From an uncultured beta proteobacterium (GTDB taxonomy: Bacteria > Pseudomonadota > Gammaproteobacteria > Burkholderiales > Casimicrobiaceae): DNA of 47,737 bases. Within the stretch, counting starts at the first letter, position 1; every line of letters starts with the position of its first letter. The stretch covers positions 1 through 47,737 of the forward strand of contig CAIWHR010000143.1 of NCBI GenBank assembly GCA_903912485.1, given 5' to 3'. The notes beneath the pieces were generated by a model that was not told where the DNA came from, ran no database searches, and worked only from the letters and a program-made list of their open reading frames with translations. Positions 40,070-47,737 of this stretch are shown here, in pieces. Both the position numbers and the translations under genes were made by a program.

Positions 40070-41119
40070 ATGAAAGCAATCGTCGTACGCCAGACCGGAG
40101 GACCCGAAGCCCTGCGACTGGAAACGGTACCGGATCCGGTGCCGGGTCCGCGCGAGGCCCTCATCGAGGTGGGGGCGTGCGGCGTTTGCTCGCTGGACGT
40201 CGTCACCCGCAACGGCACCTATCGCAGGAACGTTGAGCTCCCGCTGATTCCCGGGCACGAGATCGCCGGCCGCATCGTTCAAGTGGGCTCCGAGGTGCGC
40301 CGCTTCCGCGTCGGCGACCGGGTGGCAACCACTCAGCGTTCGCATATCTGCGGATCCTGCCGTCACTGTCGCAGCGGCGGGGAGACCCTGTGCGAAGAGC
40401 GTCGCTTCCTCGGCCAGCAGCGGATGGTTGGCGGGTACGCCCAATACGCAGCAGTCGAGGACGACAACCTCGCGCTGGTCCCCGACGGCGTCTCTACCGA
40501 GCAGGCCGCGATTGCCGGCTGCGCGATCGGCACCGGCTTGAACGCCGTCCGCGACACCGGCCGAGTCCGGCTGGGCGAGCGCGTGCTGGTCACCGGCGCG
40601 GCGGGCGGGGTCGGCATCCACGCGCTGCAGATCGCGCGCGCGTCCGGCGCGTTCGTGATCGCGCAGACGACGTCGCAGCAAAAGGCGCAGGCGCTCGCGC
40701 ACTACGCCGACGCGGTCGTCGTGCACGCGCGCGGCGAGGACTTCTCCCCGCAGGTCCGCGCGCTCACCGCCGGCGCGGGCGCAGACGTGATCATCGACAA
40801 TGTCGGCACGCCGCTGTTCGAGCCGATGCGCCGCAGCCTCGCCGTCAACGGTCGCTGGATCCTCGTGGGCCAGGTGACCGACGGTTTTGTGCCGTTCAAC
40901 CCGGCGCAGCTGTTCCTGCGCAATCAATCGATGCTGTCGGTGCACAGCACGACGCGGGTGCAACTCGAGGATACGCTGCAGCTGATCGCGCGCGGCGTCG
41001 TCACGCCGGTGATCGCCGGCGTCGAGAGGCTCGAGGACGTCGCCGCGGTGCAGGCGCGGGTGGAGCGCGGCGACGTCTGCGGCCGGATCCTGGTCCGGCC
41101 GCCCGCACCGGGCGCGTAG
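40070..41119 (+). CDS. Zinc-type medium-chain alcohol dehydrogenase
   Basis: A 349-residue MDR-family oxidoreductase from MKAIVV (40070). The catalytic zinc ligands are Cys40 and His63-Glu64; the structural zinc site is Cys94/97/100/108 (CGSCRHCRSGGETLC). The Rossmann motif GAAGGVG for NAD(P) follows at about 170. The FGG-type loop and C-terminal ends are normal. The upstream in-frame start at 39980 adds an unconserved basic tail. It could act on alcohols or on an aliphatic or alicyclic intermediate. There is no match that singles out a substrate, and the dienoyl-CoA pathway dehydrogenase is only one option. It is convergent with the SDR at 41148. Confidence 0.85.
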   Translation: MKAIVVRQTGGPEALRLETVPDPVPGPREALIEVGACGVCSLDVVTRNGTYRRNVELPLIPGHEIAGRIVQVGSEVRRFRVGDRVATTQRSHICGSCRHCRSGGETLCEERRFLGQQRMVGGYAQYAAVEDDNLALVPDGVSTEQAAIAGCAIGTGLNAVRDTGRVRLGERVLVTGAAGGVGIHALQIARASGAFVIAQTTSQQKAQALAHYADAVVVHARGEDFSPQVRALTAGAGADVIIDNVGTPLFEPMRRSLAVNGRWILVGQVTDGFVPFNPAQLFLRNQSMLSVHSTTRVQLEDTLQLIARGVVTPVIAGVERLEDVAAVQARVERGDVCGRILVRPPAPGA

Positions 41120-41134: not shown

Positions 41135-41148
41135 GCCCGGCTCCGGGC
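41135..41148. terminator. Palindromic hairpin between convergent dehydrogenase genes
   Basis: GCCCGG and CCGGGC are two bases apart in the 28-base gap, touching the SDR stop. The stem would in practice be five pairs with a four-base loop. There is no T-run. Confidence 0.3.
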
Positions 41149-41897
41149 TAGAGCGCGAGCCCGCCGTCGGCGAAGTGGACGTGCCCGGTCGTGTTGAGCG
41201 CCTCGTCCGAAGCGAGGTAGACGGCGAGCCAGGCGACCTCCTCGCAGGTGCCCAGCCGGCCGTTGAGTTGCGCGTCGACGTAGGTCTTGCGCACTGCCTC
41301 GTAGGTCTGCCCGGTCGCGGCCGCGGTCGCGCGCATCCGCTCGTTGATCGACGGCGAATCGATCGCCCCGGGACAGATCGCATTGACGCGCACGCCCCGC
41401 GCCACGAAGTCGATCGCCACCGACTTGGTCAGCGCGATGACGGCGCCCTTGGTCGTGCCGTACACGTAGCGGTTCCGGATGCCCTTCACCGATGACGCGC
41501 ACGACGCGATGTTGACGATCGAGCCCGCCCGGCGCTCGAGCATCCCCGGAAGGAACGCCCGGATCGCCCGGTGCATGCCGCGCACGTTGATGTCGAACGA
41601 GGCGTCCCACGTCGACTCGTCGCAGTCGAGGACCGTGCCGTGCGTGACGTAGCCCGCGCAATTGACGAGCACGTCCGCCGTTCCGACTTCGTGCTGCAGC
41701 GTCGCGACGTCGCCCTCCGAACGCACGTCGAGCTTGCGGCGGCTCGTTCCGGTCAGCCCGTCGAGCTTCGCGACGTCGACGTCGGTGGCCCATACCTGCG
41801 CGCCTTCACGCGCGAAGATTTCAGCGATGGCGCGGCCGATGCCCTGGCCCGCCGCCGTCACCACCGCCGTCTTGCCCTGCAACCGACCGGCGGCCAT
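41148..41897 (-). CDS. Short-chain dehydrogenase related to BDH2/DHRS6
   Basis: A 249-residue SDR with the cofactor motif TAAGQGIG (14-21), NCAG (79-82) and the catalytic Ser132, Tyr146 and Lys150 in a VYGTTK context. Overall spacing and motifs (HGTVLDCDE, SSVKG, CPGAIDSPS) resemble type 2 3-hydroxybutyrate dehydrogenase (BDH2/DHRS6). These are NAD-dependent oxidoreductases for hydroxy acids. It starts four bases after the end of the ABC-transporter substrate-binding gene, so it is the last gene of that operon. It may metabolise the imported compound. The substrate is not proven. Confidence 0.88.
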   Translation of the reverse strand: MAAGRLQGKTAVVTAAGQGIGRAIAEIFAREGAQVWATDVDVAKLDGLTGTSRRKLDVRSEGDVATLQHEVGTADVLVNCAGYVTHGTVLDCDESTWDASFDINVRGMHRAIRAFLPGMLERRAGSIVNIASCASSVKGIRNRYVYGTTKGAVIALTKSVAIDFVARGVRVNAICPGAIDSPSINERMRATAAATGQTYEAVRKTYVDAQLNGRLGTCEEVAWLAVYLASDEALNTTGHVHFADGGLAL

Positions 41898-41901
41898 GTC
41901 T

Positions 41902-43107
41902 CTACGGCAGCTGCGGCTTGATGGTCTGGTACTTCTTCGGCCAGATCGTGTACAGCTTGCCGTCGGACCACGTGACGAGGATCGGCATCGCGTAGATGTT
42001 CATGCCGGTGGCGTCGAACTTGACGCGCTCGCCCGGGTAGATCGAAGGGACGTCCATGCCGGCCAGCGTGTCGCGCAGCACCTTGGGGTCGGCCGATTTG
42101 GCCTTCTCCAGCACGTCGGCCATCAAGAGGCCGATCGCGTACCCTTCGCCGGCGGCTTCCTGCGGCAGCAGCTTCTCGTCCGGGAAGGCGGCCTTCCACT
42201 TCGCCGCAAATTCGGCGACGCCCTTGATCGGCAGGTCGCCGTTCCACGCGATCGTTCCCATCAGGTTGTCTGCCTGCTTGCCCAGCGCCTCCGAGATGGT
42301 CTTGACGGCAATTCCGGAGCCGCTGCCGACGATCGGCGCCGTGACGCCGAGGTTGCGCAGCGCCTTGGTGATCAGGATCGTGTCGTCGGTGTAGAGGTTG
42401 AGGAAGATGATCTCGGGCTTGCCCGCCAGCACCGGGCCGATGACCGGCGTCGGATCGGTGATGCCGGACGGCAGCGCCGCCGTCGCGACGACCTCGATGT
42501 TGTTCTTCTTCGCGTTGGCCAGCAGCCCGGCGCCCAGGGCCTGGCTGTTCGCATCCGAGCCGTAGAAGATCGCCACCTTCTTCGGCCGCGTGTTCTTGAC
42601 CTCGGCGTACAGCGCATTGACGTAGTCGAAGCTCGCGGCCGAGAACGCCGACGACATCGGCGGCAGCTTGAACGTATATTTGAAGCCCTTGCTGACGATC
42701 GCGTCGGCGTACGACGTCGTGATGATCGGGACCTCCGCCCGCTCCGCCTCGATCTGCGCCGACAGCGTCATCGTGCTGACGTGCGCCCCCATGAGCATCA
42801 CGGCCTTGTCCTGCGTGATGACGCGGCGAGTGACGGTGGACGCCTGCGTCGGGTTGTCGCTCGACGTGTCGGCGCTCACCAGCTTCAGCTTTGCGCCGCC
42901 AAGCGACTTGATGCCGCCCTTGGCATTGATCTCGTCGACCGCGATGCGCAGGCCGGCGACGACCTGGCGGCCGCCCTCAGCATAGCCGCCGCTCAACGAA
43001 TTGGGCGCGCCGATGACGATCTCCTTCACCTGTGCGCCGGCCGGGGCCGCGAGCACGCCGAGCGAGAGCGCGGCGGCCAGGACTGTCCATCTCGACTTCA
43101 GAACCAT
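41902..43107 (-). CDS. LivK-like periplasmic substrate-binding protein
   Basis: A 401-residue ABC-importer binding protein of the branched-chain amino acid type (Peripla_BP_6). A signal peptide (about 1-25, ending in GAQ) is followed by VKEIVIGAPNSLSGGYAEGG and EINAKGGI, which line the ligand cleft. This family binds Leu/Ile/Val but also aromatic acids, amides and other small organic acids. It is encoded after the two ATPase genes and before the SDR gene. The ligand should be judged from the genetic context rather than the family name. Confidence 0.9.
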   Translation of the reverse strand: MVLKSRWTVLAAALSLGVLAAPAGAQVKEIVIGAPNSLSGGYAEGGRQVVAGLRIAVDEINAKGGIKSLGGAKLKLVSADTSSDNPTQASTVTRRVITQDKAVMLMGAHVSTMTLSAQIEAERAEVPIITTSYADAIVSKGFKYTFKLPPMSSAFSAASFDYVNALYAEVKNTRPKKVAIFYGSDANSQALGAGLLANAKKNNIEVVATAALPSGITDPTPVIGPVLAGKPEIIFLNLYTDDTILITKALRNLGVTAPIVGSGSGIAVKTISEALGKQADNLMGTIAWNGDLPIKGVAEFAAKWKAAFPDEKLLPQEAAGEGYAIGLLMADVLEKAKSADPKVLRDTLAGMDVPSIYPGERVKFDATGMNIYAMPILVTWSDGKLYTIWPKKYQTIKPQLP

Positions 43108-43167
43108 GTGATCCTCCTTCGTGGGTTGGCAATGGTGTTACGACTCGGTAGCAGGCTTCCTGCGGTT

Positions 43168-43875
43168 TCACACACCAAGGTAGGCGCGCCGTACGAAATC
43201 CGAGTCCCGCAGCTTGGCGTGATCGCCGCTGAGCATCGTGTGTCCATTGGCGAGGAGCAGCCCCCGCGTCGCCATGTCGATGCAGGACGCGTTCTGCTCG
43301 ACGAGCAGAATCGACGCGCCCTGGTCGCGAATCCTCGCCAGCTGTTCGAACATGAGCTCCGTCATCAGCGGCGACAGACCCAGCGAGGGCTCGTCCAGCA
43401 TCAGCAGCTTGGGCGTGTTCATCAGCGCGCGGCCGATGGCGAGCATCTGCTGCTCACCGCCGCTCATCGTGTTCGCCGTCTGCCGGCGGCGACTCGCCAG
43501 GCGTGGAAAGATCCCGTAGACCCGGTCGCGCAGCTGCGCCAGCGTTTCCTTCGAGCGCTGCCGGATGAAGCTGACATCGAGGTTCTCCTCCGCCGTCAGG
43601 TTGGGAAAGATCCGCCGGCCTTCGGGAACGTGCGCGATGCCGAGATGCGCCACCTGATCGGGCCGCAGTCCCAGCAGCGAGACGCCTTCCGAGTTCAGCG
43701 TCCCTCGCGTCGGCTTCAGCAAGCCCGAGATCGCGCGCAACACGCTCGTCTTGCCGGCACCGTTCGCGCCGAGCAGGACGAAGATCTCGCCGGGCTCGAC
43801 GGAGAACGAGATGTCGTGGACCGCGGTGAGGTCGCCGTACGCGACCCGGAGGCTTTCGACGGCGAGCAGCGTCAT
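43168..43875 (-). CDS. livF: LivF-like ABC ATPase
   Basis: A 235-residue ATPase with Walker A (GANGAGKTS), Q-loop, signature (MSGGEQQMLAIGRAL), Walker B (LLMLDEPSLGL) and H-loop (LLVEQNAS). Two such ATPases energise branched-chain type importers. Its ATG overlaps the livG stop in ATGA. Confidence 0.93.
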   Translation of the reverse strand: MTLLAVESLRVAYGDLTAVHDISFSVEPGEIFVLLGANGAGKTSVLRAISGLLKPTRGTLNSEGVSLLGLRPDQVAHLGIAHVPEGRRIFPNLTAEENLDVSFIRQRSKETLAQLRDRVYGIFPRLASRRRQTANTMSGGEQQMLAIGRALMNTPKLLMLDEPSLGLSPLMTELMFEQLARIRDQGASILLVEQNASCIDMATRGLLLANGHTMLSGDHAKLRDSDFVRRAYLGV

Positions 43876-44609
43876 GGCGCGGGGCGGTGCCTGGCACCGA
43901 GATAGGCTTCGATGACGACCGGGTTCGCCGCGACCTCTTTGGGGGGGCCGTCGGCGATGACACAGCCGTGCTGCAGGACGACGAGCCGCTGCGCCATCGC
44001 CATCACGACCGGCATCACGTGCTCGACCACGATGATCGTCAGACCCTGGCGATTGAGCCCCAGGATCTCCTGGACCACTTCGTCCGCCTCGTCGCGGGTC
44101 AGGCCCGAGAGACACTCGTCGAGCATGAGAACGCGGCACCGGCCGACGATGGCGCGCGCGATCTCGACCTTCTTGCGGTCGGGAAGCGTGATCTCGCTCG
44201 GGTAACGATCGGCCTGCGCGGTGAGCCGCAGCTTGGCGAGCGCACTCGCCACCTCGTCGCGCCAGTTGCCGTCGACGACGCACTGCTGGGCGGCGACGGC
44301 GACGTTCTGCGCCACGGTGAGCGCGCCGAACAGCCTGATCTTCTGGAACGTGCGGCAAAGTCCGCTCCTGCGTCGCCGGAAGGCGGCCATCCGCGTCACG
44401 TCGTCGCCGTGGAAGGCGATCGCGCCGCTGCTCGGCGGGATGTTGCCGCTGATGACTTCGAACAGCGTCGACTTCCCGGCGCCGTTGGGTCCGATCAGGC
44501 CGACGACTTCCTGCTGCTCGACGGCAAACGAGACGTCGCTCAACGCCTGAAGCCCGCCGAATTTCCGGTGGACCGACGTGACCTCGAGGACCGCGGGATT
44601 GCGCGCCAT
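43872..44609 (-). CDS. livG: LivG-like ABC ATPase
   Basis: A 245-residue ATPase from MARN (44609). Walker A is GPNGAGKST. The signature region reads TLPDRKKVEIARAI instead of a YGxQ or SGGQ form, and Walker B reads VLMLDECLSGL. Related LivG proteins with a LPDRKRLE-type signature exist (from memory), so this is probably a subfamily feature rather than decay. It pairs with livF and is coupled to it by overlap. Confidence 0.92.
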   Translation of the reverse strand: MARNPAVLEVTSVHRKFGGLQALSDVSFAVEQQEVVGLIGPNGAGKSTLFEVISGNIPPSSGAIAFHGDDVTRMAAFRRRRSGLCRTFQKIRLFGALTVAQNVAVAAQQCVVDGNWRDEVASALAKLRLTAQADRYPSEITLPDRKKVEIARAIVGRCRVLMLDECLSGLTRDEADEVVQEILGLNRQGLTIIVVEHVMPVVMAMAQRLVVLQHGCVIADGPPKEVAANPVVIEAYLGARHRPAP

Positions 44610-44614
44610 GATCG

Positions 44615-45661
44615 TCAATCGCCGCCGCCGGCCGGCGCCGCGCGCCCCGACCGCTGCAGGCGCTTCGACTTGATGTAGCCGAGAATGCCCACCGGCGCCT
44701 TCAGGACGATCAGCAGCAGGACGATGCCGTACGCGAGCACGTCGACACCGTCCAGACCGAGGCGCGACGAGGCGACGTTGGTGCCTTCGGAGAGCAGGAT
44801 CATGATCGCGCCGCCGATGATCGGACCGCCCGCGGTGCCGAGACCCCCGATCAGCGCCGGGAGCTGGATCTGGATCGCCTGCGAGAGGCCGAATGCCGTC
44901 CCGGGATCGATCGACAGATAGAACTGCAAGTGAAGTGTGCCGGCGAGAGCCGTCATGGCGGCGCTCAGCAGGAGCGCGAGCAGCTTGGTCCGGTAGACGT
45001 TCACGCCGGCACTGGTGGCCGCTTCCTCGTCGTCGCGGACCGCCTGCAATGCGAGGCCGAAGTTGCCACGCAGCAGCCAGCGAGTGACGGCGTAGAACGC
45101 CAGGACGACGGCAAGCGAGATCCAGAGAAACGCTTCCGGCTCGCGCCATTGCATGACGGCCGGCGCGGTGCCGCGGAAGTTCACCGCCAGCCCGGTGTCG
45201 CCTCCGGTCAGCGCGAAGTAGAAGCGGGCCAGCTTTTCGAACGCGAGCGAAATGACGACGGTGGCGAGGGCGAAATAGATCCCGCGCAGGCGAAACGTGA
45301 TCGCACCGATGACGACCGCCACCGCCCCGGCAAGCGCCGCCGCGAGCCACGCGCCGACCCATGGCGTGATGCCGAAATCGTTGAACAGCAGCCCGGTGCC
45401 GTAGGCGCCCAGGCCGAAGAACACGCCGTGGCCCAGCGACAGCTGCCCGCCGATGCCGGCAATCACGTTCCATGCCTGTCCGAGCGCGATGAAGATCAGC
45501 GCCCGCACCACGATGCCGATCAGGTACGAGTTCGCGAAGGGCAACAGCGGAAGGCAGGCGACCAGCGCCACGAGGGCGACGCCGTAGCCGAGCTGGCGGA
45601 ATTCTGCCCGGCCCGGCAGACCTGCCGGGACCGGCGCGCCCGAATCGATCGTTCCGGCCAT
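44615..45661 (-). CDS. livM: LivM-like permease
   Basis: A 348-residue polytopic membrane protein of the LivM/BPD_transp_2 family, with about ten hydrophobic helices. The conserved GQLSLGHGVFFGLGAYG motif is present. It forms the importer channel together with LivH. It ends five bases before livG starts and begins two bases after the livH stop. Confidence 0.93.
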   Translation of the reverse strand: MAGTIDSGAPVPAGLPGRAEFRQLGYGVALVALVACLPLLPFANSYLIGIVVRALIFIALGQAWNVIAGIGGQLSLGHGVFFGLGAYGTGLLFNDFGITPWVGAWLAAALAGAVAVVIGAITFRLRGIYFALATVVISLAFEKLARFYFALTGGDTGLAVNFRGTAPAVMQWREPEAFLWISLAVVLAFYAVTRWLLRGNFGLALQAVRDDEEAATSAGVNVYRTKLLALLLSAAMTALAGTLHLQFYLSIDPGTAFGLSQAIQIQLPALIGGLGTAGGPIIGGAIMILLSEGTNVASSRLGLDGVDVLAYGIVLLLIVLKAPVGILGYIKSKRLQRSGRAAPAGGGD

Positions 45662-45663
45662 GG

Positions 45664-46524
45664 TCAGTGCGCCGACACGCGTCCGAACAGGCCATACGGC
45701 CGGAACGCCAGCAGCAGCAGCAGGACGCCGTACAGCGGGACATCCTGCAACGCCGACGTCCACAGCACGCTCGTCATCTGCTGGATGACGCCGCAGATGA
45801 TTCCGCCGACGAACGCCCCGCCGATGCTGCCGAGCCCTCCCAGCACCGTCGCGATCAGCGCGATGGGCATCAACAGGAAGCCGACGTGTGGGCTGACCGG
45901 ATAATAGGAGACGAGCACGGCGCCAGCGATGCCCGCCAGCGCCCCCGAACAGGCGAACGCGGTGATGTTGATCACCTGCGAGTTGAGGCCCACCAGCTGT
46001 GCTGCTTCCGGATCGTCGGCCACCGCGCGGATCGCCTTGCCCCACGAGGTCTTCCGGAGCACGGCTTCGACCGTCAGGACGCACGCGACCGAAATGGCGA
46101 ACGCAGCGAGCTGTGCGTACGAGAGGAAGATCGGACCGATCAGCAGGTACTGCGACCCCCAGTTCGAGCGGACCGCATGCGCACTCGGGCCGAAGATCAG
46201 CGTGGCCGACGTCTGCAGGATGAGCGCAACGGCGATGGCCGCCAGCAGCTGCTGCAGCGTTGCCCGGCCGACGAACCGGCGGTAGACAAGAAGGTACAGG
46301 ACCGCGCTCAGCGCGGCGACGACCACGAACGCCAGCGGTATCGCCACGAGCGGGTCGACGCCGGCCGCGCTGTAGGCGAAGAACGCGGCGAACATGCCGA
46401 TCATCACCAATTCTCCGTGCGCGAAGTTCACGATGCGCATGACGCCGAAGGCAATACTGAATCCCATCGAGAAGAGCCCGTAGACGCCTCCCACCAGAAT
46501 CCCGCTCAAGAGAGCCTGCAGCAT
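45664..46524 (-). CDS. livH: LivH-like permease
   Basis: A 286-residue membrane protein of the LivH family with about eight helices. Landmarks are MGFSIAFGVMRIVNFAHGELVM and VLGGLGSIGGAFVGG. It is the first gene of the importer operon; the AGGA-containing leader starts at a candidate promoter at 46616-46644. Confidence 0.93.
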   Translation of the reverse strand: MLQALLSGILVGGVYGLFSMGFSIAFGVMRIVNFAHGELVMIGMFAAFFAYSAAGVDPLVAIPLAFVVVAALSAVLYLLVYRRFVGRATLQQLLAAIAVALILQTSATLIFGPSAHAVRSNWGSQYLLIGPIFLSYAQLAAFAISVACVLTVEAVLRKTSWGKAIRAVADDPEAAQLVGLNSQVINITAFACSGALAGIAGAVLVSYYPVSPHVGFLLMPIALIATVLGGLGSIGGAFVGGIICGVIQQMTSVLWTSALQDVPLYGVLLLLLAFRPYGLFGRVSAH

Positions 46525-46605
46525 ACGGTCCCCGTCCTGAAGATTGTCGCGTTCACGGCGCCGCCGAGGTGTCCGGCGACCGGCCGGACCCATCGGTCGG
46601 CAATG

Positions 46606-46620
46606 GCTACCGATGAGTAT
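46606..46620. promoter_or_regulatory. Putative TetR operator 1 (GCTACnnATGAGTAT)
   Basis: This motif recurs at 47466-47480. It overlaps the predicted -10 box of the liv operon, as expected for a repressor site. Operator function is inferred from the shared sequence and its position beside a tetR gene. Confidence 0.5.
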
Positions 46621-46644
46621 CTCCTAACACTTCCAGTAATGCAA
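46616..46644 (-). promoter_or_regulatory. Candidate promoter of the livHMGFK-SDR operon
   Basis: On the minus strand TTGCAT (46644-46639) and GATACT (46621-46616) are 17 bases apart, leaving a leader of about 85 bases before livH. The -10 box overlaps the putative operator. Confidence 0.55.
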
Positions 46645-46658
46645 ATGATACTGCTGGT

Positions 46659-46687
46659 TTGCAGCGATCTTCGCGTACACATATACT
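46659..46687 (+). promoter_or_regulatory. Candidate promoter of the tetR gene
   Basis: TTGCAG and TATACT are separated by 17 bases, followed by a leader of about 65 bases that holds a 15-base tandem duplication. It is back to back with the liv promoter. Confidence 0.6.
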
Positions 46688-46690
46688 GGC

Positions 46691-46720
46691 AGGTAGATTC
46701 CGAACAGGTAGATTCCGAAC
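46691..46720 (+). repeat. Perfect 15-base tandem duplication in the tetR leader
   Basis: AGGTAGATTCCGAAC occurs twice without a gap, just downstream of the predicted tetR start site. It could be a recent slippage duplication or a regulatory site in the leader. Confidence 0.6.
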
Positions 46721-46759
46721 ACGCCTCTGCGTCGAGGCACGCAGTTCACGGGAGGCAAC

Positions 46760-47416
46760 GTGCGCGCAACCAAGGTATCGACGAGCTTGAAGGCCGAGGT
46801 CGCCGCTCTGAAGCGCCGGCGGATCCTCGAGGTCGCGACGGACCTGTTCTACGACAGCGGCTACGAGAACACGACGCTCGAGGAGGTGGCCGACCGCCTG
46901 AAAGTCACCAAGCCGTTCATCTATTCCCACTACTCGTCCAAGGCCCGCCTGCTCGCGGACATCTGCGAACTCGGGATCGCCTGCTCGCTGGCGGAAATCA
47001 ACAAGGTCCTGCCGAGCAGCGTCGGCCCGGAACAGAAGCTCCGCCTCTTCGGCGAGGGCTTCGTCCTCGCCGTCATCGGCAGCCAGAAGCAACTCGCGAT
47101 CTATAACCGGGAAGAGAAGAACCTCGAGCCGGAGGACGTCCAACGCATCGGCCGGATGCGCCGTGAGTTCGACCGCAAGCTCAACGTCCTGCTCGACGAA
47201 GGCGTCGCCAGGGGCGTCTTTCGGATCGAGGACCGCGAGCTCGCGACGCTGGCGATCGGAGGCATGGTGAGCTGGGCGTCCGTATGGTATCGGCCAAGGG
47301 GGCGGCTCGCGCCCGACACGCTCGCCACGCGCATCACCAACCTCATCTTCAACGTGGTCCGCTGCGACGACGCCCGTGCGCCCGATCGGGCGCGGACCGC
47401 GCCGAAGCAGCGCTGA
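46760..47416 (+). CDS. TetR family transcriptional regulator
   Basis: A 218-residue repressor. It begins at GTG 46760 with GGAGG at 46751-46755. The N-terminal helix-turn-helix (about 18-66) has KRRRILEVATDLFYDSGYENTTLEEVADRL and ends VTKPFIYSHYSSK. The C-terminal ligand domain (70-205) is helical and resembles regulators of acyl-CoA or aromatic catabolism only in general form. It is divergent from the liv operon and upstream of a thiolase-like gene. A common motif lies at both promoters, so it probably represses both. Confidence 0.92.
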   Translation: MRATKVSTSLKAEVAALKRRRILEVATDLFYDSGYENTTLEEVADRLKVTKPFIYSHYSSKARLLADICELGIACSLAEINKVLPSSVGPEQKLRLFGEGFVLAVIGSQKQLAIYNREEKNLEPEDVQRIGRMRREFDRKLNVLLDEGVARGVFRIEDRELATLAIGGMVSWASVWYRPRGRLAPDTLATRITNLIFNVVRCDDARAPDRARTAPKQR

Positions 47417-47436
47417 GCGATATCCCGCGACGGGGC

Positions 47437-47465
47437 TTGCTATTGCGTACGTACTGGCATAATAT
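47437..47465 (+). promoter_or_regulatory. Candidate promoter of the thiolase-like gene
   Basis: TTGCTA and TAATAT are separated by 17 bases in an A/T-richer patch after the tetR gene. The putative operator at 47466-47480 covers the predicted start site. Confidence 0.5.
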
Positions 47466-47480
47466 GCTACTCATGAGTAT
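47466..47480. promoter_or_regulatory. Putative TetR operator 2 (contains palindrome TACTCATGAGTA)
   Basis: It contains a perfect 12-base palindrome at 47468-47479 and matches the site at 46606-46620 over GCTACnnATGAGTAT. Its place immediately after a -10 box is typical of a repressor site. Confidence 0.55.
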
Positions 47481-47614
47481 GCCTTTTCTGTCGAGACCGG
47501 GAATCACGCCATCGTCGCGACGCCGCAGGTCCCGGACACCGGGCGGAAGCAAGGCCGCCGTGACCAGCGCCGCCGGCCGCAATCGAGCGCAGGGAACCTG
47601 AAGGAATGCCGCAC

Positions 47615-47737
47615 ATGCCACCGTCTCCCCCGGTCGCCGTCGTAGGAAGCGCGATTCACGCCCCGCGAGACCGCGCGCGGCGCTCGCTCGAGGAGGCCAT
47701 CTACGACGTCGCGCAGGCCGCGCTGCGCGATGCCGGC
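47615..47737 (+). CDS. Thiolase-like protein, 5' end only
   Basis: Only 41 codons lie inside the window. From ATG 47615 (AAGGA nine bases upstream; an in-frame ATG is at 47606) the product begins MPPSPPVAVVGSAIH and continues with SLEEAIYDVAQAALRDAG. This resembles the N-terminus of thiolase/SCP-x type acetyl-CoA acetyltransferases, where VAVVG and LRDAG-like segments surround the first strand and helix. The substrate cannot be told. It would be controlled by the TetR through operator 2. Confidence 0.6.
   Translation, partial: MPPSPPVAVVGSAIHAPRDRARRSLEEAIYDVAQAALRDAG

Follow-up and report, generated by a model that had tools for sequence, protein, structure and literature searches.

MbdR of Azoarcus sp. 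CIB (structure 4UDS) is a TetR repressor of anaerobic 3-methylbenzoate degradation that, in the passages of PMC4424350 devoted to it, binds ATACN10GTAT sites at an ABC transporter-CoA ligase operon, at the pathway operon and at its own gene, with 3-methylbenzoyl-CoA, a CoA thioester, as the ligand that releases it. For Thermus thermophilus, portions of PMC7022988 give the sequence bound by PfmR (TTHB023), a TetR regulator of fatty acid genes, as CTGACCGATCGGTCAG, and the consensus of SbtR (TTHA0167) as TGACYrnnyRGTCA. A further TetR-type relative, DarR, is a c-di-AMP sensor, as stated in excerpts of PMC10636190.

The locus described here resembles that of MbdR in that palindromic sites are predicted at transporter, pathway and own promoters, where MbdR has ATAC...GTAT palindromes (cf. 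the relevant parts of PMC4424350). It differs in its operator (ATACN10GTAT for MbdR vs arms 6 bp apart here) and in its enzymes, and the two regulators are only weakly similar (E 3.7e-8); the MbdR-type pattern ATACN10GTAT, at up to 1 mismatch, had 0 matches in the window, the whole stretch of 47,737 nt that was analysed. The core of the PfmR sequence, ACCGATCGGT, has the same spacing as ACYNATNRGT here, and SbtR has the ACYNNNNRGT core found here (both from the portions of PMC7022988 noted above). Outer bases differ from those of PfmR (TGAC/GTCA vs TAC/GTA here), as does the gene set, and outer bases and target genes likewise differ from those of SbtR; the PfmR/SbtR-type operator TGACYNNNNRGTCA gave 0 exact matches in the window, the inner core ACYNNNNRGT being common to both operator types. 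NadQ was considered and set aside, its consensus (ttATRCTCannntGAGYATaa, in passages of PMC5343134) having a longer spacer than the sites here; for LiuQ/FadP, also considered, a motif was not found in those passages.

The window is an entire contig (C143) of a draft genome of 5.27 Mb in 644 contigs, 96% complete, and its features are collected in Table 1. The genes livH-M-G-F-K-SDR lie on a single strand (-) from 46524 down to 41148, separated by gaps of 2-60 nt or overlapping by 4 nt, and a Zn-type alcohol dehydrogenase gene (+ strand, end at 41119) converges on the SDR gene and closes the import operon. Since these genes share one strand and are tightly spaced, a single site at livH can cover both import and SDR; livH through SDR are presumably co-transcribed, as presumably are the genes of the thiolase operon on the other side of tetR.

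Table 1. Genes and predicted operator-like sites at the tetR locus; positions are those of the window, and "hand-read" marks promoter boxes assigned by eye.
Feature	Position	Strand	Remarks
livH-type permease	45664..46524	-	first gene of import operon; ORF list and domain search (slightly shorter stretch)
livM-type permease	44615..45661	-	ORF list and domain search
livG-type ATPase	43872..44609	-	start MARNPAVLEV, end per ORF list; domain search on 43908-44615, without last codons
livF-type ATPase	43168..43875	-	start MTLLAVES; domain search on 43171-43911, beginning 36 nt early
livK-type periplasmic binding protein	41902..43107	-	ORF list and domain search
short-chain dehydrogenase/reductase (SDR)	41148..41897	-	4 nt behind livK; last import-operon gene
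tetR	46760..47416	+	TetR_N (PF00440) and TetR_C_24 (PF17932); 218 aa, GTG start; domain search
thiolase-like gene, N-terminal 44 codons	47606..47737	+	in-frame continuation on own-genome contig C116 (L133, reversed)
operator-like site 1, TACCGATGAGTA	46608..46619		upstream of livH; overlaps hand-read -10 (46621-46616, -); matrix rank 2
operator-like site 2, TACTCATGAGTA	47468..47479		perfect palindrome; just 3' of hand-read -10 TAATAT (47460-47465); matrix rank 1
operator-like site 3, TACTGGCAGGTA	46684..46695		overlaps tetR -10 TATACT (46682-46687); matrix rank 3; fits TACYNNNNRGTA
weak fourth match, TACGACTCGGTA	43139..43150		livF-livK gap; matrix score 7.99

The tetR product scored 49.8 bits against TetR_N (gathering cut-off 24) and 103.4 bits against TetR_C_24 (cut-off 26.4), and belongs to the TetR_C_24 branch (PF17932) of the TetR/AcrR family. 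It did not reach the NCBIfam equivalog cut-offs for KstR (19.1 of 280 bits), PsrA (19.8 of 300), FadR of Bacillus (29.7 of 200) or AcrR (30.6 of 271), and a second relative of it was not found in its own genome at E<=0.001. Its solved relatives by sequence include 3VPR, which we take to be PfmR, as second-best match (E 7.6e-20), KstR2 (E 1.7e-11) and 4UDS, the entry named MBDR REGULATOR (E 3.7e-8). KstR2, a TetR repressor of cholesterol catabolism, has a solved structure and was matched over most of the length; the similarity is low, however, and the model for the sister regulator KstR stayed far under its cut-off. KstR2 belongs to a CoA-thioester pathway, and its operator differs from the one here.

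The earlier note had claimed that the same motif lies at both promoters flanking tetR, and this was borne out: GCTACNNATGAGTAT occurs as exact 15-nt copies at 46606-46620 and 47466-47480, both read on the + strand. The genome-wide search, a check set beforehand, had the same outcome, the two window copies of GCTACnnATGAGTAT being the sole exact matches in the 5.27-Mb draft genome. With 2 mismatches allowed, GCTACNNATGAGTAT was found at 5 more genome places, and the reversed control pattern gave 2+2 matches. The perfect palindrome also claimed is present in the second copy (the 12-mer TACTCATGAGTA, site 2), but not in the first, whose 12-mer TACCGATGAGTA (site 1) departs from it at 2 positions. 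At up to 2 mismatches TACTCATGAGTA was not enriched genome-wide (8 places vs 12 for its reversed control), and therefore the palindrome alone is only moderately convincing and its genome-wide frequency is no evidence by itself. The degenerate form TACYNNNNRGTA had 3 matches in the window, all at this locus, vs 0.13 expected; in the whole genome it had 13, vs 53 for the reversed control, and 3 of the 13 fall inside 0.9 kb here.

One copy was said to overlap the liv -10 box and the other to follow the -10 box of the thiolase-like gene. Reading by hand agrees, giving TTGCAT / 17 nt / GATACT for liv (46644-46616, - strand, 7 of 12 consensus letters), with site 1 on the -10, and TTGCTA / 17 nt / TAATAT for the thiolase-like gene (47437-47465, 8 of 12), with site 2 right behind it and 126 nt ahead of the gene start; but a consensus scan of 46500-47737 (threshold at least 9 of 12 letters) returned neither, both being weak consensus matches. 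The sole promoter from that scan was that of tetR, TTTGCA-18-TATACT (46658-46687), and site 3, on its -10, is a probable autoregulation site, as predicted from its sequence and place. The earlier reading had missed this third site, as well as how degenerate the real consensus is and which genes complete the operon beyond the contig end. Directly 3' of the tetR -10 (46690-46719), a 15-bp unit, CAGGTAGATTCCGAA, is perfectly duplicated in tandem; the right arm of site 3 (CAGGTA) is thereby repeated, and the duplication may modulate TetR binding or the tetR leader.

Relatives of the TetR were collected in one genome-contig scan with a six-sequence TetR alignment, which gave 183 confirmed relatives; the best 80, 37-57% identical to the window TetR, were kept with their surrounding DNA. 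At up to 1 mismatch, TACTCATGAGTA had 12 sites in 10 of the 80 loci. Among 960 palindromic 12-mers of the same composition only 3 reach 12 sites, namely TACTCATGAGTA, its variant TACTGATCAGTA and the unrelated ATCATGCATGAT; if composition is not matched, the rank of TACTCATGAGTA is unremarkable, 385 of 4096 palindromes reaching 12 sites in this G+C-rich DNA. The merged form TACYNATNRGTA had 22 matches in 16 of the 80 loci (1.08 Mb) and came first of 360 letter-permuted palindromes (next 13, mean 1.1), counts that carry some selection as the form was chosen after part of its sites had been seen. Although the loci are called about 88% coding, 18 of the 22 matches fall in called intergenic DNA, and the remaining 4 are 22-54 nt past the start of a called gene. 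Across the genomes behind 10 of the 16 strict-site loci, the strict pattern showed no genome-wide excess (25 matches vs 35 for the control); by coordinate count, 16 of the 25 fall in the fetched loci, which were preselected for having a site.

A weight matrix built from the 22 TACYNATNRGTA sites of the relatives, none of them from the window, was run over the 47.7-kb window and ranked sites 2, 1 and 3 first, second and third (scores 22.3, 21.4 and 11.2). In 60 simulated windows the matrix maximum averaged about 8.2 and was 17.0 at the largest, and hits of at least 11.2 averaged 0.18 per window. Sites 2 and 1 thus outscore all 60 simulated windows, and site 3, below the largest simulated maximum and differing from the strict pattern TACYNATNRGTA at two central bases, is supported as a candidate by its score together with its place on the tetR -10. 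The match in the livF-livK gap was discarded as a site; its score is close to the mean simulated-window maximum (8.18), and it is probably due to chance.

Of the 80 loci, 24 have the looser form TACYNNNNRGTA in the 200 nt ahead of the TetR match, vs 8 for the best other permuted pattern (mean about 0.8); when the TetRs were clustered at 80% identity it was upstream in 14 of 38 clusters, vs 7 for the best control. Counted over whole loci it is less distinctive, with some permuted controls exceeding it (its 93 matches fall in 61 loci, against control maxima of 165 matches and 69 loci). In a midpoint-rooted FastTree the window TetR grouped with 20 relatives at local support 0.998, and of these 20, the fetched DNA of 15 contains one or more copies of TACYNNNNRGTA and that of 10 the strict form. 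TACYNNNNRGTA is absent from the fetched DNA of L051, L056, L057, L058 and L059, though their TetRs are 51-56% identical to that of the window. Searches within the same order or class gave mostly distant TetRs; six of the resulting loci were examined (L014, L043-L047; 3.6 kb each) and were without TACYNATNRGTA, and TACYNNNNRGTA was present in 4 of the 6. In Novosphingobium and other Sphingomonadaceae (L113, L116-L119, L122-L127) a form TGCTACNNNNNNGTATAA is placed 29 nt ahead of a called start in 7 of the 11 loci, and in the other 4 it is 4-22 nt past one; its centre is variable, as if the TAC/GTA arms alone were kept.

The comparison of relatives settles, at the level of sequence, that the repeat is real. 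It also supports the proposal of the earlier note that one TetR regulon covers import, SDR and thiolase-like steps, in that the motif is tied to relatives of this TetR, in many genera and mostly in promoter regions, unlike the permuted controls.

The circuit recurs in other genomes. In Propylenella binzhouense L72 (L048), a Hyphomicrobiales MAG (L049) and Mesorhizobium sp. J18 (L062), genes for the ligase, cyclase, CoA-transferase, both thiolase-like proteins and the OB protein adjoin TetR (47-74% identical), and all three loci have a site ahead of the acyl-CoA ligase gene; matches to TctC and SMP-30 were not found in these loci. For the TRAP transporter gene, the site is upstream in L048 and L062, and that of L049 falls 8 nt inside the called start; for an FMO-type monooxygenase gene, L049 has an upstream site and L048 one that falls 23 nt inside the called start. 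In L064, L079, L086 and L094 the DNA separating TetR from an FMO-type gene has sites. L052 has genes for a Liv transporter, a CoA-transferase, the thiolase pair and the OB protein ahead of a site and TetR. One further locus, L061, is a plasmid record (CP023455) without annotation. The transporter beside the same TetR and enzymes is swapped, TRAP in L048, L049 and L062 and Liv-type ABC in the window, L052 and L050; thus the uptake system changes while regulator, operator and core enzymes stay.

The thiolase-like gene is cut by the contig end. By searching the window's own genome with a relative's thiolase, contig C116 (13,943 bp) was found. The window end (47718-47737) has a 20-bp exact overlap with the start of the reversed contig, the reading frame is kept, and in L048, L049, L062 and L052 the two parts align to neighbouring segments of a single thiolase-like gene; from this overlap, frame and homology, C116 appears to continue the thiolase-like operon of the window. 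Next on C116 come genes for another thiolase-like protein, which shares 75% identity with that of L052, and for a ChsH2-type OB-fold protein; TctC binding, SMP-30, acyl-CoA ligase, cyclase-family and type III CoA-transferase proteins are encoded there as well, and TACYNNNNRGTA was not found on this contig. For the thiolase-OB pair, Sal/Ltp2-type aldolases with DUF35 partners, as described in parts of PMC12329534, serve as an analogy only. The same contig also has an ORF with collagen-like GPTGTTGPTG repeats (1449-2126 of L133, - strand).

In our judgement it is highly probable that the product of tetR acts locally as a repressor of transport, of acyl-CoA catabolism and of its own gene, MbdR-like and with predicted sites at three promoters. 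Computed here were the sites, the link between them and this TetR family, the arrangement of the genes and the enzyme core shared by relatives, and from them we infer TetR binding, repression and the inducer as follows. A TetR dimer would bind the degenerate palindromes (A)TACYNNNNRGTA(T) at the livH-M-G-F-K-SDR, tetR and thiolase-like promoters; as the sites overlap or directly follow -10 boxes, bound TetR would block RNA polymerase at the import, tetR and catabolic promoters. TetR would be released by an intermediate of the pathway, the likeliest being the CoA thioester that the acyl-CoA ligase of the cluster makes. By analogy with MbdR, and from the gene content, such a thioester is probably the inducer; the presence of DarR, a sensor of c-di-AMP, among the solved relatives speaks against reading this from the family, which therefore does not fix the inducer alone.

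Some TetR-family proteins activate, and it could be that the sites do belong to this TetR and that it is an activator or dual regulator, or that it controls only one of the flanking operons, site 1 being about 70 bp from the tetR -10 and able to serve liv alone. We regard this as unlikely since all three sites outscore everything else in the window by matrix and lie on or directly behind -10 boxes (2 of the 3 boxes hand-read), which is the layout of repressors like MbdR in the passages of PMC4424350 cited above. Still less probable is that some other transcription factor has the outer two sites as its operators, with the TetR gene a mere neighbour, as the 5 of 20 close relatives without a site in their fetched DNA might suggest: the loci were fetched by TetR similarity alone and their genes otherwise differ, yet the motif is common to them, in 24 of the 80 the TetR gene has it just ahead, and a search of the window's genome gave no further relative of this TetR at E<=0.001. 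A chance similarity of AT-rich promoter DNA, with which the unenriched 12-mer agrees, is barely credible and already contradicted by the sequence comparison of relatives, given the uniqueness of GCTACnnATGAGTAT, the ranks of the window sites under the relatives' matrix, the first place of TACYNATNRGTA among its permutations, and the excess of TACYNNNNRGTA upstream of TetR and in this 0.9 kb.

In the literature searched, TACTCATGAGTA and five written forms of the consensus were not found, and a keyword search gave no description of the cluster or its regulation among the matches listed. The control principle of the self-regulating repressor is ordinary; the circuit is newly located here and is supported by many relatives. 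More broadly, and with evenly balanced confidence, we suggest that this may be a widespread, unnamed TetR-operator pairing of Proteobacteria, (A)TACYNNNNRGTA(T), with the core ACYNNNNRGT common to Thermus PfmR/SbtR, one branch of which would control uptake systems that can replace one another (Liv-type ABC here; TRAP for Propylenella and Mesorhizobium) along with a conserved aldolase-like thiolase pair, ChsH2-type OB protein, acyl-CoA ligase, cyclase and CoA-transferase; these would make up an uncharacterised catabolic pathway whose inducer is the first CoA thioester that it forms. The three defined candidate sites turn a visual impression into a testable regulon, and the operator consensus is available to be tried on the 183 confirmed relatives. 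A transporter, an SDR and an aldolase-like thiolase pathway would be linked in one circuit, whose inducer could reveal the substrate.
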